This document shows positions 20,061 through 45,794 of a DNA stretch of 45,794 bases, piece by piece. The notes under the pieces are model-generated. The model did no database searches, was not told the DNA's origin, and saw only the letters and a program-made list of their open reading frames with translations. The stretch comes from a virus: positions 1 to 45,794 of IMG/VR virus record IMGVR_UViG_3300017753_000014, one strand, 5' to 3'. The position numbers were made by a program, and so were the translations under genes. Numbering within the stretch: position 1 is the stretch's first letter; each line of letters begins with the position of its first letter.

Positions 20061-20856
20061 GTTTATTCCTTTCTCTTCTAAATGTTTCTAAAAAATATTG
20101 TTTTCTTTTACCTTTAAAATCATAAAAATATGTACCTGGTTTAAAAACTCTAGCACTCTTCGGCCATATATCAAAACTACCACACTCTTCGCCACCGTAT
20201 TCTGTAAGTCTTACTTTACAACCTCTTATATTATAGGTCCCTAACTTAAATCTAAACTTTTTAGGTGGGTCTCTCTGTGGTAACAATCCTAATTCTTCTC
20301 TTAATATATTATCATATGTTCTCTGGTCACCATACCAATTCCAATGTGGGTCTTTATGTGCATCTGAAACCCACCTATCATACCTGTAACCAAAAAATCT
20401 TTTAACATCTTCTGTAACTTTCTTCACGACAATCATAGCATTATTTACTCGTGTGCCTTTTCTAATGGGTATCATTATATCAAAATCTTCATCAAACATT
20501 GTATCTAAATTTCTGTTTATGATATGGTCTGTACCACACATAATAATATTCTCTTCATAACCATTATCATCACATATAAATTTTGTTTCATTTAATACTT
20601 TTGATTCAATAATTTGTTTACCCTCTGTGTCAACTCTAAATGTTTCTAAATGTTCCATTTTAGGTATTATTGTTGTATTATCTGTAGATAATATTAGTTT
20701 ACCATTTTCTGAATTATGCCATAGAAAAGTATCATTTAGACATTGTAAAAATAAATGATAATTATATCTATTCTTTAAAACTAAATCTTTTACTTCGTCT
20801 GCTTCTTTCACATCTTTAAAATTAGGATTTTTAAAGAACGGAACTAGATACACCAT
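20050..20856 (-). CDS. putative glycosyltransferase
   Basis: 268 residues; start at 20856 (MVYLVPFFKNPNFKD) since GGAG lies 8 nt before it. NIIMCGTDHIINRNLDTMF (about 103-121) has the loop and acidic metal-binding residues of a GT-A fold, followed by AMIVVKK and WYGDQRTYDNIL, where the last pattern matches acceptor regions of GT8-like enzymes. Donor and acceptor unknown. It follows the WbpE-like aminotransferase gene and overlaps it. Confidence 0.65.
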   Translation of the reverse strand: MVYLVPFFKNPNFKDVKEADEVKDLVLKNRYNYHLFLQCLNDTFLWHNSENGKLILSTDNTTIIPKMEHLETFRVDTEGKQIIESKVLNETKFICDDNGYEENIIMCGTDHIINRNLDTMFDEDFDIMIPIRKGTRVNNAMIVVKKVTEDVKRFFGYRYDRWVSDAHKDPHWNWYGDQRTYDNILREELGLLPQRDPPKKFRFKLGTYNIRGCKVRLTEYGGEECGSFDIWPKSARVFKPGTYFYDFKGKRKQYFLETFRRERNKHGR

Positions 20857-21928
20857 TACCATTACTCCAATACTTTTGTAAAATGTCTATAACTTTTTCT
20901 TTATTAACGCCAGGATAAATTGGCAAACTTACTTGACTGTTTGATATTTTTTCTGTTACAGGTAAATCTATATCAACTATATTTTCAACATCATTACATA
21001 TAGTGCAATTCGTTTTACCCATTCTATATAATGGATTTGCATGTACAGGTTTATCGTAATGTTTTTTTAATTGTAAATCGTTTGAACATCTTTCAATTAA
21101 CTTATTTCTATCTCTGTGTAATATAGGGTAAATATGATAACTATGTTCAACGCCCTCTTGTGTATAACAATAGTCTAGATGTTTATTATAATAATCTGCG
21201 ATTTCTTGTTTCTCTCTTAGAACTTCAGGATAGTATTTTAATTTTAAACTAATAAATCTAGCATTTATATTAGACATTCTCATATTAAATCCAATATCAT
21301 TTTCTTTCCAACTTCTCTGTTCTTTCATTTCTTTTGCAAGACCTTCATCATCTGTTATTACACAACCTGCATCACCAAATGCTCCTATGCCTTTACCAGG
21401 ATAAAAACTAAAAGTACCTGCCTCACCAAATGTACCTACATGTTTACCATTAACTCTAGTACCGTGTGCTTGTGAGCAATCTTCTATTATTATAGATGTA
21501 GACTTTTTACTATTTATTCTTGTCATATCACAAGCATTACCATACATATGTACTGGTAGTATTACTTTATTATCAAAACCTACATTTAGTTTTTCTGGGT
21601 CCATACAATATGTTTTCTCATCAATATCAACAAATTCATTGTATGCACCTAAATATCTTATTGCTGATAATGTTGCAGTAAATGTATGAGAAACTGTGGT
21701 AACTTTATCACCTGAACGAATACCAGCAGAATATAATGCAATCGCTAATGCTGATGTACCACTATTTACTGCAACACAATACTTAGCACCAGTAAAATCT
21801 GCAAAGTCTTCTTCAAACTTTTCTGTACCAAATACAAAGTTACTTGTATTAAGTAACTCTTCGACCTCAGACATAAACTCTTCTTTCAAAGGTTTATGTA
21901 TCTCTGTCATATCGTAATAGGGTATCAT
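20831..21928 (-). CDS. DegT/DnrJ/EryC1/StrS sugar aminotransferase, WbpE-like
   Basis: 365 residues. Transfers an amino group to a 3-keto or 4-keto nucleotide sugar. SGTSALAIAL (56-65), IIEDCSQAHGT (147-157) and SFYPGKGIGAFGDAGC (174-189) with PLP lysine K179 are family hallmarks. With the dehydrogenase and acetyltransferase just upstream it matches the WbpB-WbpE-WbpD set that makes UDP-2,3-diacetamido sugars, so it is probably the 3-aminotransferase. ATGA overlap with the dehydrogenase gene. Confidence 0.9.
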   Translation of the reverse strand: MIPYYDMTEIHKPLKEEFMSEVEELLNTSNFVFGTEKFEEDFADFTGAKYCVAVNSGTSALAIALYSAGIRSGDKVTTVSHTFTATLSAIRYLGAYNEFVDIDEKTYCMDPEKLNVGFDNKVILPVHMYGNACDMTRINSKKSTSIIIEDCSQAHGTRVNGKHVGTFGEAGTFSFYPGKGIGAFGDAGCVITDDEGLAKEMKEQRSWKENDIGFNMRMSNINARFISLKLKYYPEVLREKQEIADYYNKHLDYCYTQEGVEHSYHIYPILHRDRNKLIERCSNDLQLKKHYDKPVHANPLYRMGKTNCTICNDVENIVDIDLPVTEKISNSQVSLPIYPGVNKEKVIDILQKYWSNGNGVSSSVL

Positions 21929-22854
21929 ACTTCTTTATCTATCCACTTCATAAGTTTTAGTGCCTTATCAACATCACTTATACATTCAATTTTGTGATTG
22001 TTAATACATTCTAAAAAATGTCTTTTACCATTCATTAGTGCTTCACTCGATTCTACTTTAGGGCATGTCATATTACCTAATTGATTTATATTATAATCTT
22101 CACCCACTTCACCAGTATCGTACACTTTTATTTTGTTTACATCTATGTCATCATATATAACAGATTTTTTAGTACCTGTCAAGATTATTTCTCTTTTCTT
22201 TACAGGACTTACCCAATTGCAGTTAATAGTAGCAGTAAACCCATTATTAAATTTTAAACATACAATAGACTGATTCGATTTATCGTTTACATGGTTGTTC
22301 TTTATAATAGATTTTTTAACTAATTCAATATCAGGATATAAATGATTTATTATAGCAAGGTCATGTATTGCTAAATCTTTTACAACATCAACATCTTTCT
22401 GAAATAAACCTAAACTAATTCTATGACTATCATAATATAATGGTTTACCTATGTCTATACTTTTAAGAGTTTGTATAGCAGGATGAAATAGAAAAGTATG
22501 GTCAACCATAATTCTTAATTTATCATTGATTGTTTTTCTATAGTCTGCTAGATTTAAGGTATCATCATAACTCATACACACAGGTTTTTCTACCCATACA
22601 TGTCTTCCATAATATATACTCAATTTTGCTAAATCTAAATGACTTTCAGGTTTCGTTGCTATTAATACTGCCTTTACATCATTATTGTGTTCTAATACAT
22701 TTGTTAAACTAACATCATACTTAAATTTACTACCATATAAATGTTTCGCTTTATCTAACTCGTTATGTGATTTATCTACTATGTGAGTAATTTTATCTGA
22801 AAATACCCTTGCAAGATTTCTACCCCAATACCCAAATCCAACTAACGCAATCAT
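21925..22854 (-). CDS. Gfo/Idh/MocA oxidoreductase, WbpB-like
   Basis: 309 residues. NAD-binding GFGYWG (6-11), VEKPVC with E89-K90-P91, and DLAIHDLAIINHL near 161-173. In WbpB the family oxidises the C3 hydroxyl of UDP-N-acetylglucosaminuronic acid. It overlaps the acetyltransferase gene and the aminotransferase gene by 4 bp on each side, which argues for one pathway. The missing step is UDP-GlcNAc 6-dehydrogenase (WbpA), presumably host-supplied. Confidence 0.85.
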   Translation of the reverse strand: MIALVGFGYWGRNLARVFSDKITHIVDKSHNELDKAKHLYGSKFKYDVSLTNVLEHNNDVKAVLIATKPESHLDLAKLSIYYGRHVWVEKPVCMSYDDTLNLADYRKTINDKLRIMVDHTFLFHPAIQTLKSIDIGKPLYYDSHRISLGLFQKDVDVVKDLAIHDLAIINHLYPDIELVKKSIIKNNHVNDKSNQSIVCLKFNNGFTATINCNWVSPVKKREIILTGTKKSVIYDDIDVNKIKVYDTGEVGEDYNINQLGNMTCPKVESSEALMNGKRHFLECINNHKIECISDVDKALKLMKWIDKEV

Positions 22855-23270
22855 TTTATTCTCCTTGCTGGGTTGCCGGCATAGATACCAGGTTCTTCTA
22901 TATCTTTTGTTACGACTGAACCAGCACCTATCGTTACATTGTCACAGATTGTGACAGGTAATATTGTTGAGTTAGAACCTATGTTGCAATTATTACCTAT
23001 ATTAGTTGGTAAAAAGTCTTTACTTAAATTACCATCTTTAAATTTATCGTTAGTGAACATGACACCATGAGCGATAAAACATTTATCCATGATTGTAACA
23101 TTCTCACATATAAAACTGTGTGATTGTATTCTTGTATTATCACCTATATAAGAACCTTTTTGTATTTCACAAAATGGTCCTATAAAAACATTATCACCTA
23201 TAACACATTCATACATATTAACAGGTTCTACAATTGTGTTTTCTTTTCCTATTTTACAGTCACGAATCAT
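22851..23270 (-). CDS. left-handed beta-helix acyltransferase, WbpD-like
   Basis: 139 residues with hexapeptide repeats (VIGDNVFIGPFCEI, TICDNVTIGAGSVVTKDI). Closely resembles WbpD: GVMFTNDKFKDG, TNIGNNCNIGSNSTI and YAGNPARRIK. It would N-acetylate the 3-amino group of the sugar nucleotide using acetyl-CoA. ATG is preceded by AAAGGTTAATAA. It is first of the trio in transcription order. Confidence 0.88.
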   Translation of the reverse strand: MIRDCKIGKENTIVEPVNMYECVIGDNVFIGPFCEIQKGSYIGDNTRIQSHSFICENVTIMDKCFIAHGVMFTNDKFKDGNLSKDFLPTNIGNNCNIGSNSTILPVTICDNVTIGAGSVVTKDIEEPGIYAGNPARRIK

Positions 23271-24489
23271 TTATTAACCTTTCATAAAAATTATCTTGAT
23301 TTACTATTTCATCTAGTGATAAATTTTCACCTAGATATTTGCCTATATTATTATAGTACCATAAATTTGTTTGATTAAAAAACTTGTTTGCATTATCATA
23401 ATTTATCTGACATCTACCACTAATTAATACAGTACCTCTTCCCCATTTGTTTTCTATAAGAAAACATAAACACTCACTAGACATAGAGATATCATTTTCT
23501 AATTGAGATACTTCTTCAAATGTTTTATTTTTTATATCATATTTTATTACTGTATTCCAATCTGTAACTTTTATGTAAGTTTCTTCTGCGTCAAATAATG
23601 TCATATCATTTTTATTATGTAACTCCTCACACATACTACTAAATGATTTAATAACTTTTTCTTTTTTAATAGTATTGTTTTTATGTAATGGTTTTATAAT
23701 CTTTCTCATTGTAGACCAATATTGTAAACCATTTTCAGACATTCTTGAATGAATAAAAGTTTCAGGCACAGGAAATACACATTCGACTTTATTTACATCT
23801 GCAAATCTTTTTATATCTGTTAAAGGTGGCACATACTCATTCATATAAAAGTTTTCTTCGTGTGAGTAATATATGTAAGAAGCAAATGGTACCCAAGTTT
23901 CAGGTTTAAATACTTTTAATTGCATCTTTAGTCTATCATAAATTATTGATTGTGCCTTTTTAGGCATATTTACATCACCTTTATTGCCTGCCCAATTTGC
24001 ATAAGTAAATTGCGATAACAGAACATCAACTTTTTTTAGTTGTAATTTTGTCAATTCAGATTCATCTCTAACTTGATAGTCATTCATATTAACTAAAGTT
24101 TTACCATTATTATGTTCATACACAAAGAAACTATCAAACCCATTTGATTGTACTTTAATTCTGCCCGTTGTCAATTCATAATATCTATTATTCTCTACTT
24201 CTAAAACTTTAAAACCTAAACGCTTAACAAAACTTACTACTTTTCTATCTAATGTTTTATGAAAAATAATTGTTTTCATTTCTGGGTCAGATATACTTTC
24301 TAAAAAAGGTATGTTAAAATGGTCTGGGTGTTCGTGTGATATATAAATCCAATCATACCCATACTGACTAATCTCTTTATCAAACTCTTTTAGTAAATTC
24401 CAACCATTTAAAAAGATACTACCTTTAGTCCAAGGGTCTACTAAAATGTTATCTAATAAAAATGATGAATGATTGAAAAATTTAATCAT
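23260..24489 (-). CDS. metallo-beta-lactamase-fold protein, CMAH-like without Rieske domain
   Basis: 409 residues. ISHEHPDHFN (50-59) gives the metal-site ligands H52, H54, D56, H57. DPWTKGSIFLNGW (18-30), VDVLLSQFTYANWAG, and KPETWVPFASYIYYSHEENF match the metallo-beta-lactamase part of CMP-N-acetylneuraminate hydroxylase (DPWLTGPAFARGW and PFAGYFVESHPSDKY). The Rieske iron-sulfur domain that precedes it in CMAH is missing, so true hydroxylation of sialic acid is unlikely unless another protein supplies electrons. GAGGAATATA precedes ATG. Confidence 0.75.
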   Translation of the reverse strand: MIKFFNHSSFLLDNILVDPWTKGSIFLNGWNLLKEFDKEISQYGYDWIYISHEHPDHFNIPFLESISDPEMKTIIFHKTLDRKVVSFVKRLGFKVLEVENNRYYELTTGRIKVQSNGFDSFFVYEHNNGKTLVNMNDYQVRDESELTKLQLKKVDVLLSQFTYANWAGNKGDVNMPKKAQSIIYDRLKMQLKVFKPETWVPFASYIYYSHEENFYMNEYVPPLTDIKRFADVNKVECVFPVPETFIHSRMSENGLQYWSTMRKIIKPLHKNNTIKKEKVIKSFSSMCEELHNKNDMTLFDAEETYIKVTDWNTVIKYDIKNKTFEEVSQLENDISMSSECLCFLIENKWGRGTVLISGRCQINYDNANKFFNQTNLWYYNNIGKYLGENLSLDEIVNQDNFYERLINDS

Positions 24490-25402
24490 TATATTCCTCT
24501 GCTATTTTTTCTCTATAAGGTTTAACATCACCTTGTAGACATTTTATAATTCTGTGAGCATAATCAGTTTTCATTTCTTCACCTGTAAACTGACACCACT
24601 TTAAATAATCTATGTGATTAAATATCTTTTCTGCACCTGCCCAATAAGGTTTTTCTATATTCTCAAGATTTGTTTCACTTAAATAACCACCTGCATTAGG
24701 TCCTAATACAATAGCAGGTACACCCACAGTTATTGACTCTAATGATGCTATACTATTGTATGTTACAATACAATGATATTTACCTTTTCTTAATTGGTCT
24801 TGTAAAGAATAGTTATTTCTTTCTGTTCTAGATAACTTCTTTCTCACTTCTACTTCTCTATCTGTCAATTTTTTAATTTTCTTAATTAATTTTTTTGTGT
24901 ATGTGTGTGCTACTCCGCCAAAGTGATTGAAAACTTTTTGACTAGGTGGTACTATCAATATTTTTTTCTTATCGTGATATTCTCTTTCTTTTAAATCCCA
25001 TCTTATAACATCTCTTCTGAAATCAAATACATTTTCAATTTCGTGTGCATGAAACTCTGTTCTCAATCTATCTTCAATCTCTTCTTTAGATAAATGATTT
25101 AAAGTTTGTAAGTTATTATATGCTATTCTATGCCATATCTTTGTAATTTGATTACCAAAATAACCTGTATCTATATACAGATAGTCAATGTTATTTTCTA
25201 TACAATCCCATATCAGAGGTGACTTGCCTAAACCACGAAACACACAAGGTGTTTTATCGTCAATATCGAAATCATCATCATTCATATATTTACCTAGACA
25301 ACCTTGAGAAAAACTATGAATGTATGGGTCTACTGCATTTTTACCATTTCTTTCTCTTTCATCTGCTTTTAATAATGACCAATCAACACATCTATATGAC
25401 AT
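24482..25402 (-). CDS. GT-B-like surface polysaccharide protein
   Basis: 306 residues. Resembles the proteins at 18379-19194 and 25392-26381: IDYLYIDTGYFGNQ near 72-85, ILIVPPSQKVFNHFGG starting the second half, and YNSIASLESITVGVPAIVLG near 217-236. The last block is the acceptor/nucleotide-sugar region of capsule synthesis glycosyltransferases. It probably transfers a sugar to a phage- or host-surface glycan. GGAAAGGATAAAAG precedes ATG. Confidence 0.65.
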   Translation of the reverse strand: MSYRCVDWSLLKADERERNGKNAVDPYIHSFSQGCLGKYMNDDDFDIDDKTPCVFRGLGKSPLIWDCIENNIDYLYIDTGYFGNQITKIWHRIAYNNLQTLNHLSKEEIEDRLRTEFHAHEIENVFDFRRDVIRWDLKEREYHDKKKILIVPPSQKVFNHFGGVAHTYTKKLIKKIKKLTDREVEVRKKLSRTERNNYSLQDQLRKGKYHCIVTYNSIASLESITVGVPAIVLGPNAGGYLSETNLENIEKPYWAGAEKIFNHIDYLKWCQFTGEEMKTDYAHRIIKCLQGDVKPYREKIAEEYND

Positions 25403-26381
25403 CTTTTATCCTTTCCCAATATTCACCACTCTCTAAATCTGGTAATCGCCAATGAGAGTAACCTAAGTTATTTAAAAATTGTTGTCTATTGATACTTATA
25501 TTGGGTTGTTCTATATCAGATAGTTCACCTGCCTTCATAGGTAAAAAATAACAATTGGGATTTGTTATGAATAATGGTTTACCTTCTATGATTGCAGGAC
25601 CTCCAGCAGTAGATGTAAATATGACAACTGCAAATGCCTTTCGTATCTCACCTACTAACCCAGGATAATGGTCTAGTGGTGAATGTATTGAAACATTTTT
25701 AGAAGTTTCAGAATATTCTTTCAGTCTTTGATAATCTGACTTATGTTCTATGTAAGACCTCGAGGAGTGTTGTCGTATAATTATAGGTCTATCTGTATGT
25801 TTTCTTAACTCATCTACAGTATCTATTGCCCATTGAGCAGCATTGACACCTAAACCAGAGTACCCACTTGAACCTCTATTGCAACAAATATATATGTGTT
25901 CGCCTTTTAAATTATAATCTTTCAGGTCTATTCTTTTTATTTTTTTCATTCTTTCCCATCTATCTGAAGGGCATTTGTCATTGAAGTATTTTGCCTTACC
26001 AGGATAGATATCTCCATATGCAACTCTAACGAATGAATTCTTTATATCGTATTCGTAATTATGATTTAAGTGAGAGTCTATACCATTTAATACATCATTA
26101 TCAAACATCCATATGTTACCACTCTCTTTGTATTTGTTCCAAACATTAACTCTTAATTGTAATCTCTCTTTTAACTTTTCTTGACCAGGTGCAACTCTTT
26201 GATAATTGAATATCAAAGCATGAGAGGTATTTTTAACATCAAAACCTTCTGCACCCTTATGATTTATTACATGAATGCCATCTTTAGATATAGGTTCACC
26301 AAATGCTTTCATTAACTCCATTTTAAAACCATACTTTACAGTCGTTGCATAGTAAATACACAAATCACGCATCATACTCAT
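25392..26381 (-). CDS. GT-B-like surface polysaccharide protein
   Basis: 329 residues from MSMMRDLCIYYATTVK; 26372-26381 hold several possible ATGs, 26381 follows GAGAGGACAG closely. IYICCNRGSSGYSGLG, RPIIIRQHSSRSYIE, and VVIFTSTAGGPAIIEGKPLF (about 264-283) are the pattern of a capsule-type transferase. It overlaps its neighbours on both sides, the methyltransferase before and the GT-B-like gene after. Confidence 0.6.
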   Translation of the reverse strand: MSMMRDLCIYYATTVKYGFKMELMKAFGEPISKDGIHVINHKGAEGFDVKNTSHALIFNYQRVAPGQEKLKERLQLRVNVWNKYKESGNIWMFDNDVLNGIDSHLNHNYEYDIKNSFVRVAYGDIYPGKAKYFNDKCPSDRWERMKKIKRIDLKDYNLKGEHIYICCNRGSSGYSGLGVNAAQWAIDTVDELRKHTDRPIIIRQHSSRSYIEHKSDYQRLKEYSETSKNVSIHSPLDHYPGLVGEIRKAFAVVIFTSTAGGPAIIEGKPLFITNPNCYFLPMKAGELSDIEQPNISINRQQFLNNLGYSHWRLPDLESGEYWERIKDVI

Positions 26382-27219
26382 CTGTCCTCTCACCATCTAA
26401 TATTGTTGTCTTTTTTGTCTTCTCATACATTTTTTGCAAATTAATGTATAATGTCTTATCTTTTCTATCACCTGCGTACTTCATCTGTAGAGGATATTGA
26501 AACTCTTGTTGTTTTATTTTTTTAGCAATGCACATTATAATTACTTCTTCAGGTTTGTTAGGGTACATCTTTCTATTCTCTGGGTCAGGTATAAAGTAAT
26601 CTAAGTTATGCTCTACAAGTTCACCTATATCTCTCGTTGTACCCTTAACACCTATCAAGTCACTTATTACCCACCCATTTTGATGAAATATATCTGTGTA
26701 TGCAGTAGGGTTAAAGTTCCAAAAACCATGATTTATCTTTGATGCTGGTGCTGCCATAAAAATCGTACCATTCATTTTAGTCATTTGCATAATATTTTTA
26801 AATGCTTGACCTACATTAAAACAATGTTCTAAAGTTCCTACATCTAAAATTAAATCATAGTTTGGTTTATAATCTATTGGCACAGGTTCATTTAAATCTA
26901 ATATTAACTCAACACCTAAATGAGAATACACATCAAATACATCTATATCCATATTAAAGTAATTAAAGAAACTTTCTGCTGTGTATAGTTGTTTTGTACC
27001 ATCTTCTTCTAGTTTTGCTCGTAACTTTTTATGCAAACTAGTATTAACAAATTTTTCTCTAACTTCTAATTTACTTGTATCTATGCCTTGATTTTTAAAC
27101 ATAGTTTCTGTAACAAGTAAATCAGGATAACCTAGTGTTGCAACAGTCAATCTTTTATCACTTTGCAAATTCTTCAAAGTTCTACATACTGTTCTAAAAA
27201 AATACCTATCTATTGACAT
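26365..27219 (-). CDS. SAM-dependent methyltransferase-like protein
   Basis: 284 residues. YDLILDVGTLEHCFNVGQA (about 120-138) matches motif IV/V of class I methyltransferases, followed by MTKMNGTIFMAAPASKIN and NPTAYTDIFHQNGW. The glycine-rich SAM motif is less clear (TVATLGYPDLLV near 25-36). It is probably a sugar or glycan methylase because it sits among the transferases. GGATTAAA precedes ATG. Confidence 0.65.
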   Translation of the reverse strand: MSIDRYFFRTVCRTLKNLQSDKRLTVATLGYPDLLVTETMFKNQGIDTSKLEVREKFVNTSLHKKLRAKLEEDGTKQLYTAESFFNYFNMDIDVFDVYSHLGVELILDLNEPVPIDYKPNYDLILDVGTLEHCFNVGQAFKNIMQMTKMNGTIFMAAPASKINHGFWNFNPTAYTDIFHQNGWVISDLIGVKGTTRDIGELVEHNLDYFIPDPENRKMYPNKPEEVIIMCIAKKIKQQEFQYPLQMKYAGDRKDKTLYINLQKMYEKTKKTTILDGERTDEYDA

Positions 27220-27220
27220 T

Positions 27221-27895
27221 TTAATCCATATCTATTTGGGTTGCTTCACTATAATGTGTAAACCATTCATCTGAATAGTCTACTTCTTCAAATTCAGAAA
27301 ACCAAGGACCGCCTTCTGTGAAATGTATATTCTTTACATCTTCTTTATATTCATACTCTCCTGCTAACCAGTTCCATTCTAATGGTAAATCACCTATGAG
27401 TTTATCACTCTCTAACCATTTGAATTGATGTAACTCTAAACCTGATGCTCTATTCACATAGTTAGGAGTTAATGGGGTACACTTCTTGCAATTCATTAAC
27501 ATAAAACTAGACCAGTTCTTTTTAGGATAAACTGTTTGTTTTTGATTTAAAAATTTAACTTTACTCTTTGGTGTGTAATCGTGTTTGCAAACTTGCACAG
27601 CGTATCTATCATCTCTTAATCGCCACAGTTCGTTTATGTCTGCCTTCATTAACATATCACAATCCATAAACAATGCCCAACCTTGATAGTTCATTAAGTG
27701 TGGTGTTATAAATCTACTAAAAGAAAACTCTGTACTAGACAAAGCATTTCTTTCTCTAATAAAATCGTCTTTGATATTTTCTAAATAGATAGGTGTTATA
27801 GCAACAGGTTTTGTACTGTGTTTTAAAATACTATGTGTTAATACACTATGTGCAACTTTTTCTTTTGTATCATAACCTATGAATACATTAATCAT
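27221..27895 (-). CDS. GT-A type glycosyltransferase
   Basis: 224 residues. MINVFIGYDTKEKVA at the start, ALFMDCDMLM with D78-x-D80, and NWSSFMLMNCKKC place it with GT8-like enzymes. LPLEWNWLAGEY and IHFTEGGPWF are the distal conserved pieces. A similar but distinct enzyme is at 17475-18167. It is coupled to the small gene upstream by ATGA. Confidence 0.75.
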   Translation of the reverse strand: MINVFIGYDTKEKVAHSVLTHSILKHSTKPVAITPIYLENIKDDFIRERNALSSTEFSFSRFITPHLMNYQGWALFMDCDMLMKADINELWRLRDDRYAVQVCKHDYTPKSKVKFLNQKQTVYPKKNWSSFMLMNCKKCTPLTPNYVNRASGLELHQFKWLESDKLIGDLPLEWNWLAGEYEYKEDVKNIHFTEGGPWFSEFEEVDYSDEWFTHYSEATQIDMD

Positions 27896-36073: not shown

Positions 36074-36880
36074 CTACTCTTCAAATGATGGTTCAATTTT
36101 CACCATATCTTTTAATTTATTACTATACTTACCAATATCATGGTCTCTAACACCATCAAACATTTCAAACTTTTTTAACGCCGCCCAACGACCTCTTAAC
36201 TTATCTTTTATTAATTGCCATGGCGTCATATTTCTTATGTTACCATAATGATTAATATATGTCAAGTCCCCATGGTGTCTAAAACCCATAATCCAAAAAG
36301 GAACTCTTGGCACTACATCATTATTATTCACATGTCTATAATGCTCAAAGTTTGCACCTTTAACAAACTCGTTACCACCAACTCTAGGTGAACCATAAGT
36401 ATATACTGATGGTTTTTTATCTTCTAGTCTAGATGCACATATTGTTGCCATTGCACCACCTAAAGAATGACCACATATATATAATTTTCTATCACCTATT
36501 CTTTGTAGTGATACTGATATATCTGCCCATAATTTATCTATCTCTCCTTTAAATCCCTTATGTACCATACCCTCTGTTCTAGATTTACCTTTAAACGCAT
36601 TTAAATCTGCCTTTATATCTGTCCATTGTTTAGGTTCTGTTCCTCTAAAAGATATTATGACTAGTTCTTTATTCTGTGCTATGTGACATTGAGCGCCTTC
36701 TACATCAAAGAATTTGTAAGTTGTAAAACCTATTCTCTTGTAATGTCTTTTTGCTCGTGTAGCATCGTGATATGCAAGTCGTGAACACTCTGCCATAAAG
36801 TATGACACCCATTCATCATCTACAGCACTTAATTCAAATTTAGTTAAATCTTCATCTGTTACTTTTTCAAAATAAGTCAT
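36074..36880 (-). CDS. class-3 lipase
   Basis: 268 residues. Serine hydrolase GHSLGGAMATICASRL with nucleophile S139, acid D188 in NNNDVVPRVP, and a histidine after it, probably in VRDHDIGKY. ISFRGTEPKQWTDIKADL (76-93) is the oxyanion-side block of the family. It cuts acyl esters, most likely host membrane lipids. There is no signal peptide, so it acts from the cytoplasm or after lysis. ATG follows AAAGGAAGAAAA. Confidence 0.85.
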   Translation of the reverse strand: MTYFEKVTDEDLTKFELSAVDDEWVSYFMAECSRLAYHDATRAKRHYKRIGFTTYKFFDVEGAQCHIAQNKELVIISFRGTEPKQWTDIKADLNAFKGKSRTEGMVHKGFKGEIDKLWADISVSLQRIGDRKLYICGHSLGGAMATICASRLEDKKPSVYTYGSPRVGGNEFVKGANFEHYRHVNNNDVVPRVPFWIMGFRHHGDLTYINHYGNIRNMTPWQLIKDKLRGRWAALKKFEMFDGVRDHDIGKYSNKLKDMVKIEPSFEE

Positions 36881-37269
36881 TTTTCTTCCTTTACTTCAGG
36901 TTTATCTTGCACTGCTTTTTCGTAATAAACAATCGTTTCTTTTTGTTGTTTAATATATCTTAATAACTCTGACATATTTAATGCAAGATTTTCATAATCA
37001 TGCACACTAACAACATAAAATACATAATCGTTGTTAGTCTTCATAAACTTTTCTTTAAACTCTTCGTAGTTCTCATCTGTTACAACATAAAACTTTACAT
37101 CATTCATATCAACTGGTTTAGGTCTAGATTGCACAGGTATATTTTTCTGTACTTCTACAGTTTGAACAACTATCTCTTTCTCTGGTTTTCTTAAATAACC
37201 ACAGTTAGTCAATAGTAGGCAAAGCAGTAACAGACTCAATACTGTCAAATAATTTTTTAGTACCATCAT
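36877..37269 (-). CDS. outer-membrane lipoprotein, o-spanin-like
   Basis: 130 residues. A signal peptide (LTVLSLLLLCLLLTNC) ends with a lipobox at C23. The rest includes a proline-rich linker, IPVQSRPKPVDM, and helices with YVVTDENYEEFKEKF and LRYIKQQKETIVYYEKA. The gene starts inside the gene of a TM-plus-coiled-coil protein (65-bp overlap), the arrangement of Rz/Rz1 spanins, which fuse inner and outer membranes at lysis. It is longer than typical Rz1, so the label is inferred from layout. Confidence 0.65.
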   Translation of the reverse strand: MMVLKNYLTVLSLLLLCLLLTNCGYLRKPEKEIVVQTVEVQKNIPVQSRPKPVDMNDVKFYVVTDENYEEFKEKFMKTNNDYVFYVVSVHDYENLALNMSELLRYIKQQKETIVYYEKAVQDKPEVKEEK

Positions 37270-37594
37270 TTATCCTTTTTTCTATAAGACCAGGTTTCTT
37301 TATACTTAATCTTGTAAGATTATGTTTATGTAACTTCTTTCTCAAGTCGTCACCGTATTTTTCTGCCTCATCTAATTTAGTTTGTAATTCATTATTTAGT
37401 GTTGCAAACTTTTCTTGACTTTCTTGTAAACTATTAATTGTCAATTCGTTTGTCTTTGCAACAGTTTCTAACTTCGCATTATTTTGTTGTAGTGTTGCAA
37501 TTCTTTGCTGTGTATCATTATAATATGCATATGCACCATATACGACACCCCCAATTAATCCTACAACTACTATTAACATATATATTCTTAACAT
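37205..37594 (-). CDS. inner-membrane coiled-coil protein, i-spanin-like
   Basis: 129 residues. N-terminal membrane segment (YMLIVVVGLIGGVVYGAY, 5-22), then a long heptad coiled coil (RIATLQQNNAKLETVA and NSLQESQEKFATLNN), and KHNLTRLSIKKPGLIEKRI at the end. This is the Rz architecture. The lipoprotein gene follows and overlaps by 65 bp. AGGAGATATA precedes ATG. Confidence 0.7.
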   Translation of the reverse strand: MLRIYMLIVVVGLIGGVVYGAYAYYNDTQQRIATLQQNNAKLETVAKTNELTINSLQESQEKFATLNNELQTKLDEAEKYGDDLRKKLHKHNLTRLSIKKPGLIEKRINDGTKKLFDSIESVTALPTID

Positions 37595-38301: not shown

Positions 38302-39117
38302 TCACTTTTCTTTCTTATTAGTATCTATATAACTTTGATATACTTTATGTGCTTGTCCTAAATCTTTTTTCTTCTCTGGGTCTTTTGCTCTTTGACTGGC
38401 GACTTTTGCTCTCTGACTCATTGCTATCGCCGCCTGCATTTTATGTGCGTGTGTTTTACCAGAGTTTCTTATTTTACTTACAGATTGTTTTGCCTTTGCA
38501 CTATCTGTAAAACCTAAACCGTGTATTGTACCTCTAGGATTTTCATCTGTATATAAATCAGAATGTTTGTCCGAACCTGCTTTTTGACCAGGTTTTCTTG
38601 GTATTCTTTTTGCATCTTCTAAACCTAATTTCTTCTTTACTATATTTGTTGCAGTACCATATCTTACTTCATCACCTTTTTTCTTACCATATCTATCTTT
38701 GAAATCTTTCTTTGGTAATTCATCTGCAACTTTATGAACTTTTTTAATTTGGTCTTTTGTTAAATCTGTTTGTTCTATTAAATCTGATGGTCTAATATTA
38801 TTAGGGTTGCCCTTGTATTGATATATTCTGAAGTTCTTACCTTTATGGTCAAAACTATGTCCGTTATCTTTAATCCAGTTTCTTGCAGTCTGAATATCTT
38901 TAATGTTCTTCATCACAATTCTTGCAGTCTTACCTACATTACCTGTTTGATATATAAGATACTTTATACCTGCTGATGCGTGTAATCCTACACCACGCAT
39001 ATCTCTACCACCTTGACCTTTAGGTGGACTATCTCCAAGGTCTACCATAGGTACTACACTATCTGCACCACCCACTCTGATACTGCCACCGAAATATTCT
39101 TTAAAAGTTTTTACCAT
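38302..39117 (-). CDS. probable internal virion protein with MKxFK leader
   Basis: 271 residues, very basic. Starts MVKTFKEYFGG, like the capsid-targeting leader of T4 internal proteins (MKTYQEFIAE). LTKDQIKKVHKVADELPKKD (about 118-137) and GLGFTDSAKAKQSVSK resemble basic regions in phage structural proteins; its charge fits packaging with DNA. Function unknown. It overlaps the following neighbour's end by 7 bp. Confidence 0.7.
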   Translation of the reverse strand: MVKTFKEYFGGSIRVGGADSVVPMVDLGDSPPKGQGGRDMRGVGLHASAGIKYLIYQTGNVGKTARIVMKNIKDIQTARNWIKDNGHSFDHKGKNFRIYQYKGNPNNIRPSDLIEQTDLTKDQIKKVHKVADELPKKDFKDRYGKKKGDEVRYGTATNIVKKKLGLEDAKRIPRKPGQKAGSDKHSDLYTDENPRGTIHGLGFTDSAKAKQSVSKIRNSGKTHAHKMQAAIAMSQRAKVASQRAKDPEKKKDLGQAHKVYQSYIDTNKKEK

Positions 39118-40502
39118 GACACTTTATTATTAAATCTGACTTGAGGTTCAAAGTCCATAAACTCTATGAAGTCTTTAAAAGATTGTGAAATTTTATCATA
39201 TATTTTATTAAAGAAATTTTTAATATAATTTATTGCTCTTGCGAAAATTCTTTTAACAACATCAAACACACCTTCTGTTAATAAATCTGCATTTTTTATT
39301 TCTTCTTCTGTTATCATTTTTATGCCAACTTTAACTGCTGACCAAAATGTATAGTATCCTGTTTTTGTTTGTTTACCTGCAATTGTTCTTTTCTTTGAAC
39401 CTGATTTAAATGTAACATCAGGTTTTACAAATTTCATAATTTTACTAACATAAGCATCTTTAGAACTAGTTACTGTATGTATTGTTGGTCTTCTACCTTC
39501 AAAATCTGTAACGAGAAAATGGTCTGCTGTTCCTACATTATTACCAAATTTTACTTTACCAGTCATTGCTTCAAATGTAAACTCTCTTGCAAAGTTAGGG
39601 TTGTTAGAAAAAACATTTCTCATATCTGTTTTCATTGCTTGATGTGCCTCATCTGCTCTTCTTAATATTTCTATCTCTGCAAACTTACCTTGTTTTTCTA
39701 AATCAGTTTTACTACCTTTAATATTATATTTTGTCATATCTGTAGAAGGTAAAAGGTTATCTATATGTTTCTTCAATTGTAAAACTACTTTACTTATACT
39801 ACCCGACCTATCTAATGCAGTATAAAAAGTTGCAGTTGCTTCTTTTCTTTCGCCACTCATTAAAATAGCATCACCAGTCTTTAAAGAAATTCTTCTTCTA
39901 CCTATAAGAAAATCTGTCTTTGGTGTTAATGTCGATCCTTGTGGTTTACCTGGTGCAAAATATTTTGCCCATTCATCAGATGCAGGAGGACTATTAGGGG
40001 GAAATTTACCAGTACCATCTAATTTTAAAGTTTTTACAATTCTTTTACCCACTTCATCTGAGTTAGGTATTAGTTTTGATGTGAATTTAGGACCACCAGC
40101 AGCAGATACTATAACTGCTTCCATATCAAATGCCGCCTTTGTAGATGATTCGTTTATTGCGTTTACATATTTATCTTTAAATGATTGATATTCTTTTTCA
40201 TAGACTTCTTCTCTATGACCAAATGGTTGTACTATACCTGATTTCTCATCAACGATTGTATCTAACTGTTCTAGTTTATCTAATACTCCTTTGAGCATTG
40301 TACTATTGTTATCGTTATTCTCTTCTACTTTTCTTTTAAGGGTATTCATTAAGATAGGGTCTTTTTTCTTTTTCTTTTTTTTAACACCAGGTTCGTGTGT
40401 AGGTGGTAATGCAACATTGGCGCCAGAACCTACTGCGTTTGCAGGAGCATCTTCTTCTACCTTTGTTATCATCTCATGTGCTAAATATTTAAATGACTTC
40501 AT
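39111..40502 (-). CDS. probable internal virion protein with nuclease-like motif
   Basis: 463 residues. Starts MKSFKYLAHEM, the shared leader. A polylysine run (41-47) sits in a disordered linker. TDFLIGRRRISLKTGDAI (196-213) with D197 and K208, and E128 on an upstream helix, looks like a PD-(D/E)XK nuclease core (E, D, xLK). ILRRADEAHQAMKTDM and EFTFEAMTGKVKFG recur in homologs from marine T4-like phages as I recall. If nuclease is right, it could be delivered with the genome to degrade host DNA; this is inference. CAGGAGACGATT precedes ATG. Confidence 0.7.
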   Translation of the reverse strand: MKSFKYLAHEMITKVEEDAPANAVGSGANVALPPTHEPGVKKKKKKKDPILMNTLKRKVEENNDNNSTMLKGVLDKLEQLDTIVDEKSGIVQPFGHREEVYEKEYQSFKDKYVNAINESSTKAAFDMEAVIVSAAGGPKFTSKLIPNSDEVGKRIVKTLKLDGTGKFPPNSPPASDEWAKYFAPGKPQGSTLTPKTDFLIGRRRISLKTGDAILMSGERKEATATFYTALDRSGSISKVVLQLKKHIDNLLPSTDMTKYNIKGSKTDLEKQGKFAEIEILRRADEAHQAMKTDMRNVFSNNPNFAREFTFEAMTGKVKFGNNVGTADHFLVTDFEGRRPTIHTVTSSKDAYVSKIMKFVKPDVTFKSGSKKRTIAGKQTKTGYYTFWSAVKVGIKMITEEEIKNADLLTEGVFDVVKRIFARAINYIKNFFNKIYDKISQSFKDFIEFMDFEPQVRFNNKVSW

Positions 40503-41184
40503 AATAATCGTCTCCTGTGTAAACCATTCGTCTTAAATTGTCTTGGTCCTTCATACACAGTAACTCATAATTGTCTTCGTTTAATAACACATCATGTCCG
40601 AAGTAAGTGCCATACACAGAAATATTTGATTGTTTTTTTAATTCTTCTTCTCTATGTTCGACAATAGGAGGTAGAGAATTATCTTCTGTTAGCATTTTAT
40701 CCCACTCACCCTGCATTTTAAAATATTGAACAACTGCACTTTCTAAAACATCTTTATAATTTTTTAGATTAGGATAATCAAACACACCTTTATTTACTAA
40801 TCTTTCTTCACACTCTTTTATTTCTTGCAATATTTGTTCTGATGGTTCTACCATAACTCCATCATGTGCTTTATTCATTAAATCACTTTTTGTATTATGT
40901 TCTTTTAGTAAAACTGCTAAAGCAAGTGCAACAGAACCTAATCTACCACCAAATCCTACTTTACCCATTATTCTTTTTACATTGAAACAGAATCTATGTA
41001 ACCAAGTATATGACTTTTGTTCTTCGCTTTTTCTTAATGTGCTGTATTTTCTTAATACTTTACCAGTCTTATCAATAATGCCATATTTAAATGCATCTTG
41101 TTTCTCAAATGGTGTAGTAAGAATACGAAGAACTCTATATGTGATTAACATATCAACTGCTCTATTACCACTTGTTCCTAACAT
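40489..41184 (-). CDS. conserved virion-region protein
   Basis: 231 residues. ITYRVLRILTTPFEKQDAFK (14-33) and YGIIDKTGKVLRKYSTLR are strongly patterned, followed by a helical region RLGSVALALAVLLKEH. I recall the family among T4-like marine phage structural-region genes. No catalytic motif. AAAGGGGTTATA precedes ATG. Confidence 0.75.
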   Translation of the reverse strand: MLGTSGNRAVDMLITYRVLRILTTPFEKQDAFKYGIIDKTGKVLRKYSTLRKSEEQKSYTWLHRFCFNVKRIMGKVGFGGRLGSVALALAVLLKEHNTKSDLMNKAHDGVMVEPSEQILQEIKECEERLVNKGVFDYPNLKNYKDVLESAVVQYFKMQGEWDKMLTEDNSLPPIVEHREEELKKQSNISVYGTYFGHDVLLNEDNYELLCMKDQDNLRRMVYTGDDYYEVI

Positions 41185-41546
41185 TATAACCCCTTTAATT
41201 TTTCTTTTATATTTTCATCTTCTAAAATATTGTTTAACTCATTTGGATATAAGTAATCTAAATATCCTAATATGCTTTTCAAAATGCCCCAATACTTTAT
41301 ATCTATCTTATATAGTAATAAAGTTATACACGCTTCGGCACCAAATACATTCTGTAATACTATGATATGATTAACTGCTAATCTAACCTTAATCTTATTA
41401 GTAAGTGCATATTTACGAAAGAGTCTTTTAAGATATTTAAATCTTTTTAAATCATCATAAAATTCTGCCTCTTTTTCAAGAGTTGGATTGTCATAGTTTT
41501 TTTGTGCATAAAGTAACCAATTTTCTTTCGTTATTGATTTAAACAT
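41184..41546 (-). CDS. conserved phage protein of unknown function
   Basis: 120 residues, all-helical in appearance; RFKYLKRLFRKYALTNKIKV and NHIIVLQNVFGAEACITLLL are the best-conserved-looking parts. Start overlaps the preceding stop (TAAATG). Common in marine T4-like phage structural regions as I recall, function unknown. Confidence 0.75.
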   Translation of the reverse strand: MFKSITKENWLLYAQKNYDNPTLEKEAEFYDDLKRFKYLKRLFRKYALTNKIKVRLAVNHIIVLQNVFGAEACITLLLYKIDIKYWGILKSILGYLDYLYPNELNNILEDENIKEKLKGL

Positions 41547-41975
41547 TTACACTAATTCGCAATATACCTTTGATGTTCCTACACTTGATTGTTCGTGCTT
41601 AATTCTTAAATTAAGACCACCCTCTTTCACATCTTCGATACCATCATTATCAATGTCTTGTCCATCATCTGCTTTACCAAATGTTTTAAATCTACTAACT
41701 CTTACTGTTTGGTCTCCTTTATTTTCATCAAAACCAACAGGACCAAAATTTAAACCTATTCTCATAAGTTTATTTCTTAGTTCAGTTATTGCATGGTCAG
41801 GACTTAAATATTCTTTCATAGACATAGATTTTACAAATATGTTAACTCTACTCAAAACATCTGGGTCGTGAACATTATGAACACCTATAGAACCATCTTC
41901 AATAGCATTTTGGTCAGATGTGCCAACACCCATACTACCGTGGTCTTCTTTCACATGTTGTTTAAATGTTTTCAT
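41547..41975 (-). CDS. probable internal virion protein with MKxFK leader
   Basis: 142 residues. Opens MKTFKQHVKEDHGSMG, closest of the set to T4 capsid-targeting MKTYQEFIAEA. Later FGPVGFDENKGDQTVRVSRF and DGQDIDNDGIEDVKEGG, a Dx[DN]xDG-like calcium loop possible. Function unknown. Confidence 0.7.
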   Translation of the reverse strand: MKTFKQHVKEDHGSMGVGTSDQNAIEDGSIGVHNVHDPDVLSRVNIFVKSMSMKEYLSPDHAITELRNKLMRIGLNFGPVGFDENKGDQTVRVSRFKTFGKADDGQDIDNDGIEDVKEGGLNLRIKHEQSSVGTSKVYCELV

Positions 41976-42108
41976 TTTTCCCTCTATCTTTATTTTCTTC
42001 TTCTGTTTGTTTATCTTCGTTATCTCTTAGACTTTTACCTTTAGTCAAATCTTCTTCAAAGTCATCCATTTCTTTATCTTTACTATGATTTTTGAATGAT
42101 TTCACCAT
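41962..42108 (-). CDS. small charged protein with MKxFK leader, 48 aa
   Basis: Starts at 42108 (MVKSFKNHSKDKEMDD), as GAGGAGAGTACAA precedes that ATG. Rest is highly charged. The leader matches that of the three neighbouring proteins, so this may be a small packaged protein. It overlaps the next gene's start by 14 bp. Confidence 0.65.
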   Translation of the reverse strand: MVKSFKNHSKDKEMDDFEEDLTKGKSLRDNEDKQTEEENKDRGKNENI

Positions 42109-42343
42109 TTGTACTCTCCTCTGATTTTGGTACAGTTTGTATATCACTTATTACATCTCCACCATTATCATTTATCATGCCCAACAATTTATCAACCTGT
42201 TGAATTGCTCCATGAAGTGCATTTAAGTTATTCTTCATATTATTTAAACTCAATTCACTTTGTTTTATTTGTTCCGCCAATGCATTAAAATCTTTTTCTA
42301 ATGTTTGTCTTTCTAAAACTAAAACTTTTTTCGATACCGTCAT
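42083..42343 (-). CDS. coiled-coil protein
   Basis: 86 residues: MTVSKKVLVLERQTLEKDF then heptads (LSLNNMKNNLNALHGAIQQV). Possibly oligomeric virion or assembly factor; no family known to me. GAAAGGGTTTTAGT precedes ATG. Confidence 0.7.
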   Translation of the reverse strand: MTVSKKVLVLERQTLEKDFNALAEQIKQSELSLNNMKNNLNALHGAIQQVDKLLGMINDNGGDVISDIQTVPKSEESTNGEIIQKS

Positions 42344-43432: not shown

Positions 43433-43924
43433 TTATTTGAATCCTAAACCTTTTAATTCTCTTATAACTTGACTCGCATTTTGAAATCTAATACCTATAC
43501 CACCCTTCGTTGTAAACTCTTTTGTATTTCTACCATAGTCATCTATTAGTATAGACGGTTTACCACCCACCTTTGCATATAATTGTTTTTCACTTCTTTG
43601 AACTAGATTAACTCTACCTCTAGATATGCGTAAGTTTTTTTGAATCCAAGAACTCTTACCTGGTTTACAATTTGGGTCTTCTTGTGAAGCAGCAGATAAT
43701 ATATGTGGGTCATACTTTTCTATAAACCGCCATAAGTTTTTGCCGTCATTTAACCATGGCATATTATACCAAAACTTAGGTTTGGCAATTACAGGATCCC
43801 ATCTTTCGTTTTTAGGAATTTGCATCCACTTATTAAGTGTAATGCCCAAAGTATTTTTGATGTTTTTCTCGAAATCACAAAGAACGCCATCCATATCACA
43901 ATAGATTCTAGTATAGTTAGACAT
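43433..43924 (-). CDS. HAD-like 5'-deoxynucleotidase (NT5C type)
   Basis: 163 residues. CDMDGVLCDF (9-18) gives catalytic D10 and D12; HILSAASQED and GKSSWIQKNL, and PSILIDDYGRNTKEF are the other HAD motifs. NT5C-type enzymes dephosphorylate nucleoside monophosphates, helping nucleotide recycling. It follows TAATG from the gene before. It fits the phage nucleotide metabolism set (ThyX, Nrd). Confidence 0.8.
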   Translation of the reverse strand: MSNYTRIYCDMDGVLCDFEKNIKNTLGITLNKWMQIPKNERWDPVIAKPKFWYNMPWLNDGKNLWRFIEKYDPHILSAASQEDPNCKPGKSSWIQKNLRISRGRVNLVQRSEKQLYAKVGGKPSILIDDYGRNTKEFTTKGGIGIRFQNASQVIRELKGLGFK

Positions 43925-45036
43925 TATTTGTCAAATTCCGCCTCGGGTTTAGTATCTATTTTTGATGGTTTTGTTCCTACCATTGTTTTCTTTTTCTCTT
44001 GTTCTTTTTTCATCTTATCTTTTAGATGTTTATATGCAATGCCTACTGTCAAAGGTACTTCACCTGTTTCAGGATTAGGTTCAGGTGCCAACTTTGCGTT
44101 CTTTTCGTTTTCTAACTGTTGTTTTGCCAACGCAAGTTGCCCCTTTAAATCTGTAATCTGTGCCATCAACTTGTCTGAGTCTTTTTCTTTTGCAAGTTTA
44201 GTTTTTAGTTGTGCTACTTTATTTTTGCCAGTAGGGGTCATATCTTCAGGCATGTACTCTTCTCTTGCATTATCTATTACTGATAAGTCTTTAGGGTCTA
44301 CACCGCCTAAGAATGTATCTCTTCCTTTAAAGTAATTACCAGGTCTTTTTACTATTGATTTGTATGTAAATAAATCAACATTTGTTGTTTTAACTGTAAT
44401 CTGACTAGGAGAAGCATTAAAATGTGCTTTTGCATAATCTCTTGCTCTAAGTTTATCAGGTTGTGTCCCTAAAGCAACTATTTTTGCTTTTGATTGTGGA
44501 GTTTTTCTGTATACTGCAATATATTGTTTTCTACCTTGTTCATTAAGACTTTCACCAAATACAGCACTCATTCTATTTTTACTAATTAAATTTTCTATAT
44601 CTTTACCAGAAATATAATCTGGTAATGCTTTTTCAAGTGCATCTCTTGGACTACCACCCTTCATTGCGATTTTCATAAACTTATCTGCGAATGGTTTAAA
44701 CTGTTTGTCCTTCTTCATATCGTCTGCAAACTTTCTAATAAAGGTTAAATTAACCTCATCAATCTGTTCTTCTTTCATTTCCTTTTTCTTAATTGCTTTT
44801 TGCAATCCAGGTGGTAGTTTCTTTTGAGCACTTGTTAACTCATCTACCTTTGCCTCATTTTTAGCGGCGTGCATTTTATCTATCTTATTAAAAAATGCCT
44901 TCTTCTCATCAGGTGTCATTTGAGGTATAGACTTACCTGATTTTTTTAATTCTTTCTTAAATAATGCCTGATAGTCCTCATCAGTTTTTTTGATTGCCTC
45001 TTCTAGACTACCTGGTTTTATACCTAAATATCTCAT
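43924..45036 (-). CDS. conserved virion-region protein, MRYLGIKPGSLEEA family
   Basis: 370 residues, lysine-rich, coiled-coil C-terminus (NKVAQLKTKLAKEKDSDKLM). The MRYLGIKPGSLEEAI start recurs in T4-like marine phages as I recall. EAKVDELTSAQKKLPPGLQK and EEQIDEVNL may be binding segments. No enzymatic motif. GGAGAAAAGTAA precedes ATG; the end meets the nucleotidase start. Confidence 0.75.
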   Translation of the reverse strand: MRYLGIKPGSLEEAIKKTDEDYQALFKKELKKSGKSIPQMTPDEKKAFFNKIDKMHAAKNEAKVDELTSAQKKLPPGLQKAIKKKEMKEEQIDEVNLTFIRKFADDMKKDKQFKPFADKFMKIAMKGGSPRDALEKALPDYISGKDIENLISKNRMSAVFGESLNEQGRKQYIAVYRKTPQSKAKIVALGTQPDKLRARDYAKAHFNASPSQITVKTTNVDLFTYKSIVKRPGNYFKGRDTFLGGVDPKDLSVIDNAREEYMPEDMTPTGKNKVAQLKTKLAKEKDSDKLMAQITDLKGQLALAKQQLENEKNAKLAPEPNPETGEVPLTVGIAYKHLKDKMKKEQEKKKTMVGTKPSKIDTKPEAEFDK

Positions 45037-45794
45037 TTACTTTTCTCCTTAACTTTAGCGGCGAGGTCTTTATCTGCCCCACCCCAAGTTCCTGATGATT
45101 TTGTTATAAAGGAATTTACTCTTGCAAATGCCCATTGATGTTGTGAAGCGCCTGGTCTGTGACCACCTTTCCACGCTGCCATTCCTCTATCAAAAACTTT
45201 CTTTAATATTCCATATGGCATTCCTGATTTTTCTGCTTTCTTTTGTAGACCTGCAATTTTCTCTACTAATTTTTTAGCACCAGGGTGTTCTAAATTTTCT
45301 TTAAATTGATATTGTAAACTTTTTGGTGAGATAGAAACTAATTTACTTTTTTCTGGTTGAGTCATATCTCTCATATGCATTTGTATCACACGCAAAACAT
45401 CAGATTTTGATACTCTAAAGTTTTTTAATATAACATCAGGACTTATTTTTTGTGTGCCTTTATAATTTGGATTGTCTACTAATTCTAAATCTGGATTAAT
45501 TTTTATTGCTGGTATTCCTAAATCAGCAAGATGAAATGCTAACATGGCGGCGCCTAAACTGTGTAACATTAAACCATCAGGTCTACCTTGAAATGTTCTA
45601 CCTGCTAAATTGTATTGTAAAATACTTCTAGGGTCAACTCTGTGTAGTACACTCGCATGTTTACCATACGCCTTTTTTGCTTCAGGATTACCACTCTTTA
45701 CTATACCTTTTGAACTAGGGTCAATATAATAGAAATCATCTAGTAATGAATCATCAAACAATTCTTGTACACACATTCTTTCTAACTGTTGTAC
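45033..45794 (-). CDS. conserved phage protein, N-terminus beyond window
   Basis: About 253 residues visible; the frame stays open to the window end before the internal ATG at 45776, so the true start is probably outside. KHASVLHRVDPRSILQYNLA and GMPYGILKKVFDRGMAAW with GGHRPGASQHQWAFARVNSF near the end are blocks I connect with the DUF5824-like family of phage proteins. A virion role is likely from position. The final bases overlap the next ATG. Confidence 0.7.
   Translation of the reverse strand, partial: VQQLERMCVQELFDDSLLDDFYYIDPSSKGIVKSGNPEAKKAYGKHASVLHRVDPRSILQYNLAGRTFQGRPDGLMLHSLGAAMLAFHLADLGIPAIKINPDLELVDNPNYKGTQKISPDVILKNFRVSKSDVLRVIQMHMRDMTQPEKSKLVSISPKSLQYQFKENLEHPGAKKLVEKIAGLQKKAEKSGMPYGILKKVFDRGMAAWKGGHRPGASQHQWAFARVNSFITKSSGTWGGADKDLAAKVKEKSK

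Follow-up and report, generated by a model that had tools for sequence, protein, structure and literature searches.

A leader shared by four neighbouring proteins of a T4-like pelagiphage fragment as a candidate capsid-targeting sequence

Four neighbouring genes with a common beginning

Why should four neighbouring phage genes, the products of which are otherwise unrelated, all begin with almost the same residues? The question is raised by a single virus record of 45,794 bases (IMG/VR IMGVR_UViG_3300017753_000014, analysed as a whole and called the window here), a fragment, without the head genes, of a T4-like pelagiphage. From 33.9 to 45.8 kb, on the minus strand, its genes are ordered as in two T4-like phages, HTVC008M (KC465899) and Melnitz (MZ577097); Mosig (MT647606) is another relative. 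Up to the DNA primase this block holds mostly unnamed genes, ribonucleotide reductase genes come next, and the four genes in question (38302, 39111, 41547, and 41962) lie inside it. We put the probability at about three in four that the N-terminus common to them is a T4-type capsid-targeting sequence, by which the tagged bodies would be loaded into the head and later ejected.

The shared MK(T/S)FK-type leader had been pointed out in an original prediction from the same DNA, and the observation is real: all four N-termini are present and take the form M(V)K(T/S)FK. The four numbers, kept here as names, had been given as the beginnings of the proteins; with the genes on the minus strand, they are the 3' ends. 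The true starts are 39117 (MVKTFKEYFGG), 40502 (MKSFKYLAHEM; 39111 N-terminus MKSFKYLAHEMITKVEEDAPANAVGSG), 41975 (MKTFKQHVKED), and 42108 (MVKSFKNHSKD), the last being an ATG with an AGGAG ribosome site within a longer GTG open reading frame (ORF) that starts at 42147. Past the first residues the bodies are unrelated (all pairwise blastp E values at least 0.36). Pfam and PHROGs searches of ten window proteins gave no match for 38302, 41547, or 41962, and for 39111 a weak one to phrog_22045 (function unknown, E 0.0044).

When both strands were scanned for M-x(0-2)-K-[ST]-[FYL], these four N-termini came up together with three others, none of which (0/3) has K-[ST]-F-K. Residue frequencies were taken from a rough set of 78 minus-strand ORFs containing three tagged N-termini, 41962 having been dropped for overlap and added by hand as the fourth; on this basis 0.0076 N-termini of the form M-x(0,1)-K-[ST]-F-K are expected and four are present (Poisson P for at least four, about 1e-10), and internal K-[ST]-F-K occurs once in the same proteins versus 0.7 expected. 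Coincidence in an AT-rich genome rich in Lys, Ser, Thr, and Phe could be argued from the shortness of the motif and from UvsX, a chance match to the leader pattern described below, but four occurrences against 0.0076 and the conservation across families make it hardly credible; for the 41547 and 38302 families, conservation excludes it. The leader is absent from some other families of the block. The DUF7207/phrog_407 protein served as the negative control, with 0/54 distinct N-termini matching the leader pattern, and five leaderless families together gave 0/270.

The 41547 family keeps the T4 positions

The T4 records bear out the statement that T4 internal proteins carry MKTYQEFIAE, as ipII and ipIII both begin MKTYQEFIAEA; ipI begins MKTFKEFTSTTTPVSTITEA (MKTFKEF...STITEA). 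According to the available portion of a T4 head review (PMC9026906), residues 4 and 7 of the T4 leader are responsible for targeting and residues 8 and 10 permit processing, an Asp at position 10 blocks processing and leaves targeting intact, and the gp21 prohead protease recognises L/I-x-E and cuts after the Glu. The same kind of site is found in the major capsid protein gp23 of relatives (FLGE/, FLSE/, LLTE/, and FLAE/, the slash marking the presumed cut), and a gp21-type protease and a gp22-type core are annotated in HTVC008M, Melnitz, and Mosig.

Members of the 41547 family were fetched from 80 contigs by motifs of the body, leaving the leader unused in the search, and gave 50 distinct N-termini from 84 genes, among them those of HTVC008M, Melnitz, and the window. 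The pattern M-x(1,4)-[FYL]-x-x-[FYHILMV]-[ILV]-x-E is matched by 49/50, and the typical leader, M-K-T-F-K-x-[HYM]-[ILV]-x-E, aligns position for position with T4 MKTYQEFIAE/A. Position 4 is Phe or Leu and position 7 is His, Tyr, Met, or Phe in all 50, while position 8 is Ile, Leu, or Val and position 10 is Glu in 49. The sole exception is HTVC008M (MKSFKDFQNVNE), in which the site stands two residues further on. The window protein itself has Val at position 8, outside the strict T4 L/I. Past position 10 both length and letters vary before the conserved body starts; the AlphaFold model of this body is of low confidence (mean predicted local distance difference test, pLDDT, 62.6), too poor for a structure search.

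As the leader is located at the start codon, it might instead be a translational or regulatory signal acting at the level of RNA. The family contains 37 distinct 30-base leaders with codons that vary at synonymous sites, which argues that the protein and not an RNA element is conserved; on this ground we rejected the RNA-level signal, which is highly improbable. Given the family-wide conservation of the exact T4 positions together with the I/L/V-x-E site, a T4-type capsid-targeting sequence is well supported for 41547, the strongest case of the four. Its sequence features fit a variant of the T4 internal-protein leader that would work likewise.

39111 joins a leader, a gp23-like arm, and a predicted nuclease fold

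Two candidate sites follow the start of 39111, namely a degenerate A-H-E at residues 8-10 and V-E-E at residues 15-17, which directly precedes a segment resembling the mature N-terminal arm of gp23 (V-E-E/DAPANAVG). The gp23 sequences compared were those of Melnitz, FLSE/AAPTNSTGSAVDN (AAPTNSTG), and Mosig, FLSE/AAPTNATGSS, with the cut site presumed. Relatives carry homologous short arm proteins, one of which is annotated as a major head protein in S-SZBM1, and the homologues S-CREM2 gp160 and S-SCSM1 gene 97 are listed virion proteins. In several phages the arm copy is most like the same phage's own gp23, and over eight genome pairs, with all 40,320 permutations, this pairing gave P 0.0028, a value that is not independent of kinship because both proteins follow the same phage tree; it is a hint only. 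When gp23 was looked for in the 32 records behind the loci, it was present in three. Copies of the gp23 N-arm were noted in the window (39111-40502) and at L176:30342-31235, L181:43121-43306, and L003:22687-23205.

In HTVC008M and Melnitz the rest of 39111 is a separate gene with its own short leader ending L-S-E/A, so that two tagged proteins appear to be fused in the window gene, judging from the alignment. The body was modelled from 43 sequences (mean pLDDT 76), and the best VIA-align matches were HinP1I (Z 10.1 and 8.6) and HhaI endonuclease (6.2), with 4.5 for the next unrelated row; BbvCI (4.2) and MutH (3.3), which we take to be PD-(D/E)XK enzymes too, came lower. The likeness to HinP1I extends over 185 residues (Z 10.1, root-mean-square deviation 4.1), but identity is 10% and 39111 has S-x-K in place of (D/E)-x-K, where E-x-K or Q-x-K is expected at the PD-(D/E)XK catalytic position. 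Foldseek of the model against the PDB found no match at E <= 0.001; against viral models it found two, an uncharacterised protein of cyanophage S-RIM50 and one without a name. A profile of the body, searched against solved structures, returned no convincing relative. We read the body, from the predicted model, as a PD-(D/E)XK nuclease fold.

38302 and 41962 keep the targeting half

Behind the leaders of 38302 and 41962 we found no [ILV]-x-E, the prohead protease site; the Phe and the Tyr/His of the targeting positions are kept, shifted by one. Relatives of 38302 retain K-[TS]-[FL]-K-E-[YF], and 0/43 distinct N-termini have the full pattern; on one contig (L098), MKTFKQFIEAP precedes a 38302-type C-terminal part. 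Several relatives of 41962 read MVKKFKSFVKEEEL (F-V-K-E). By the rules known for T4, both proteins are predicted to be packaged but untrimmed.

The capsid-targeting claim of the original prediction thus divides among the four proteins. It is likely for 41547, with its T4 positions, and for 39111, with a degenerate A-H-E and then V-E-E, whereas for 41962 and 38302, which have the targeting half, it is possible in an untrimmed form. Removal in the prohead, also part of that claim, fits the I/L/V-x-E site of 41547 and finds no support in 38302 and 41962.

The tag precedes unrelated bodies in relatives

Leaders ending in [ILV]-x-E directly precede unrelated bodies in relatives: a nucleotidyltransferase (CTP_transf_like, with DUF5824), DUF6267, a zeta-toxin/AAA_33 kinase, an adenylate kinase, a RimK-like ATP-grasp protein, and an NTP_transf_2 fusion. 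The DUF6267 protein, with K-W-D-G-A-P-A, is presumably ligase-like. At 160 IMG/VR loci outside the 41547 family, Glu occupied the last pattern position in 59 distinct starts, compared with 7 for Asp and 10 to 24 each for Gln, Lys, Asn, Ser, Ala, Gly, and Thr; some of the 59 starts are coincidental, UvsX among them. This occurrence on many enzymes of the same block in relatives, like the presence of tagged proteins in cyanophage virion proteomes, had been overlooked in the original prediction.

That the tagged genes are neighbours might also point to tandem duplication of a gene start with no function of its own. Functionless copies would not hold [ILV]-x-E in place, and we rejected duplication as very unlikely because each family keeps its leader on many contigs whereas the linker behind it differs in both length and sequence, and because unrelated bodies elsewhere in relatives bear similar tags.

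Tagged proteins in published virion proteomes

Published virion proteomes of relatives, in which head is not told from tail, contain several such proteins. In the available passages, S-SM1 virions are reported to contain the cytidylyltransferase T4-GC190 (Sullivan 2010, PMC3037559), which begins MKKFSAFLNEAE (MKKFSAFLNE/A), and the virion proteins of S-SCSM1 include gene 91, an NMNAT (PMC9602691 and its record), which begins MKSFLQFLKEAA (MKSFLQFLKE/A). The S-SCSM1 record gives a virion label to six more genes of the same block (89, 90, 92, 93, 95, and 97), none with the full pattern. For S-CREM2, the parts of the paper available list 52 virion proteins (PMC10665884). Four of these have the full pattern: gp6 (S-AdoMet lyase family, MKDFDSFLEE), gp13 (MKDLHSFLTE), gp14 (kinase-like, VKRFDAFLTE), and gp154 (cytidylyltransferase, MKNFSSFLTE); gp136 has the variant MQTFSMFFSE. 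The leaderless DUF7207/phrog_407 homologues S-CREM2 gp159 (recognised by eye) and S-SCSM1 gene 96 are not listed as virion proteins. As a separate observation, the S-CREM2 virion protein gp12, annotated Cas9-like (L177:7704-10313, minus strand) and giving no Pfam match, has FASFMAE/AA at residues 19-25.

Among the 218/219 proteins of S-CREM2 there are five pattern matches, four of them virion (Fisher P 0.0016 when the 28 virion proteins outside the structural class are set against the non-virion proteins, and 0.012 for all virion versus non-virion). Several points weigh against reading the leader as a targeting tag. The S-CREM2 test was not blind, the pattern having been written after the virion N-termini were seen, and a looser pattern gave 5/11 virion (P 0.011, rising to 0.09 when every virion protein is counted). 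A matrix trained on the pelagiphage family alone placed six virion proteins in the top nine (P 0.00017) at a cut-off chosen post hoc, and its rank test over all proteins gave P 0.052. The whole-proteome test on S-SCSM1 (282 coding sequences, 48 labelled virion), run after the S-CREM2 pattern was set, had a weaker outcome: one of three pattern matches is virion (an oxygenase and UvsX make up the rest), and gene 30 (L186:44215-44535, MKTFKQFMSE), which is not labelled virion, has the best matrix score. UvsX, recognised by eye, matches by chance in three loci, so that a single match is no proof of a tag and we rejected the regular expression alone as evidence. In other families the pattern is confined to a minority of N-termini, the starts of which were picked by a heuristic (6/45, 6/49, 0/43, 4/59, 19/47, and 11/40). 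The authors of the S-CREM2 and S-SCSM1 proteomes warn, in the passages available, of possible carry-over in CsCl (PMC10665884, PMC9602691). No processed N-terminus is on record in these virion data, and no pelagiphage virion proteome was found in the literature searched.

Alternatively, the leader could serve to dock minor structural proteins of the head to its core or shell, and these proteins would remain in the particle with none ejected. This reading would account for 38302 and 41962, which have no cut site, and for the gp23-like arm of 39111, whose homologues are in the virion, but tags on a nucleotidyltransferase, an S-AdoMet lyase, an adenylate kinase, and RimK, all enzymes without an evident structural function, speak against it, and we regard it as unlikely. 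Since tagged enzymes are known in relatives' particles, the tag probably marks proteins delivered into the host.

A capsid-targeting model and its relation to known systems

If the leader is a capsid-targeting sequence, its first seven to eight residues (K-[ST]-F-K-x-[HYF]) would bind the prohead core, and the tagged protein would be built into the prohead. Where [ILV]-x-E is present (41547, probably 39111), a gp21-type prohead protease would cut after the Glu and free the body; where it is not (38302, 41962), the protein would be packaged with its tag retained. Together with the DNA, the bodies would then exit the head, to act as infection begins. More tentatively, and with our doubts outweighing our confidence, we surmise that in the Kyanoviridae the T4-like marine phages rely on a single exchangeable tag for head loading, in cut and uncut forms, that carries an enzyme kit (a nuclease, several nucleotidyltransferases, kinases, a ligase-like protein, a SAM lyase, and RimK) into the host before phage gene expression, and that one member mimics the mature capsid N-arm, the two varying in step among phages.

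The nearest parallel is T4 IPI, IPII, and IPIII, where unrelated bodies likewise share a 10-residue N-terminal leader with the same positions and an I/L/V-x-E site. The differences are that the phages here are Kyanoviridae-like marine phages and not T-even, that enzymes are part of the marine cargo (nuclease fold, nucleotidyltransferases, kinases, SAM lyase), that some marine leaders retain the targeting residues only, and that the genes sit between gp41 and gp61 homologues. The cyanophage NMNAT/cytidylyltransferase T4-GC190 is encoded within the same block of S-SM1 and of S-SCSM1, has the leader, and, going by the portions of the reports available, is found in virions of three phages by mass spectrometry; the window homologue, in contrast, is off the contig, and only its DUF5824-like C-terminal part is present. 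Inner-head ejection proteins of the giant phages phiKZ and SPN3US have N-terminal propeptides cut by the prohead protease after x-x-E, but those of SPN3US mostly exceed 100 residues and end in A-x-E or S-x-E, as far as the available text goes (PMC5694885).

The ocean is rich in phages of this group, and many of their genes between gp41 and gp61 have no known role. A readable packaging tag, if real, would sort which of these proteins accompany the DNA into the host, would account for the recurrent nucleotidyltransferase in cyanophage virions, and would offer a ready means of loading chosen proteins into marine phage heads. The available passages of the virion-proteome papers do not link the tagged proteins to a targeting sequence. 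Going by title or beginning of abstract among the papers listed, with subscription papers mostly outside, we found none that ties cyanophages or pelagiphages to a capsid-targeting sequence; one history of the T4 head surfaced.

Coordinates and neighbouring genes

Table 1. Features of the tagged gene block in the window
Feature	Position	Strand	Basis
41547 leader MKTFKQHVKE, predicted cut after E10	41946..41975	-	family conservation, T4 ipII/ipIII alignment
41547 protein, 142 aa: leader, variable linker, conserved body	41547..41975	-	ORF, family alignment
39111 leader MKSFKYLAHE, residues 1-10	40473..40502	-	N-terminus scan; relatives MKSFKELAHE, MPKHYKEMMDE
39111 segment DAPANAVGSGANVALPP behind V-E-E, resembling the mature N-arm of gp23 (major capsid protein)	40401..40451	-	gp23 comparison
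39111 I-N-E, residues 116-118, aligned with L-S-E ending the short leader of stand-alone relatives	40149..40157	-	alignment
39111 body, predicted PD-(D/E)XK nuclease fold	39111..40148	-	AlphaFold model
39111 P-K-T-D ... S-x-K, candidate catalytic motif, residues 194-208	39879..39923	-	invariant in 43 sequences; role proposed
38302 leader MVKTFKEYF, no [ILV]-x-E site	39091..39117	-	N-terminus scan; like T4 ipI MKTFKEF
38302 protein, 271 aa; C-terminal half conserved in Mosig and cyanophages	38302..39117	-	comparison
41962 leader MVKSFKNHSKD, site decayed	42076..42108	-	several relatives with F-V-K-E
41962 protein, 48 aa	41962..42108	-	ORF
DUF7207/phrog_407 protein, no leader, same block (negative control)	41184..41546	-	Pfam, PHROG
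phrog_18642 protein, no leader, same block	40489..41184	-	PHROG, N-terminus counts
5'-nucleotidase-like HAD protein, no leader here	43433..43924	-	Pfam, PHROG
Truncated DUF5824 protein at contig end, like C-terminus of HTVC008M nucleotidyltransferase	45033-45794		Pfam, PHROG

Homologues of the HAD protein in HTVC008M and Melnitz have a short N-terminal extension. Two genes that overlap each other at 36877-37594 of the window resemble a spanin pair, one of them having an L-L-T-N-C start like a lipobox and the other encoding a membrane segment at the N-terminus. Close to the tagged genes, a class 3 lipase (Pfam Lipase_3, E 8e-22) is encoded at 36074-36880; in S-CREM1, according to the passages available, a distant lipoprotein lipase homologue, ORF157, comes directly after virion proteins (PMC9964418). 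Further away, at 20831-27895, the window carries genes of sugar or cell-surface type, including a DegT aminotransferase and a glycosyltransferase of family 8.

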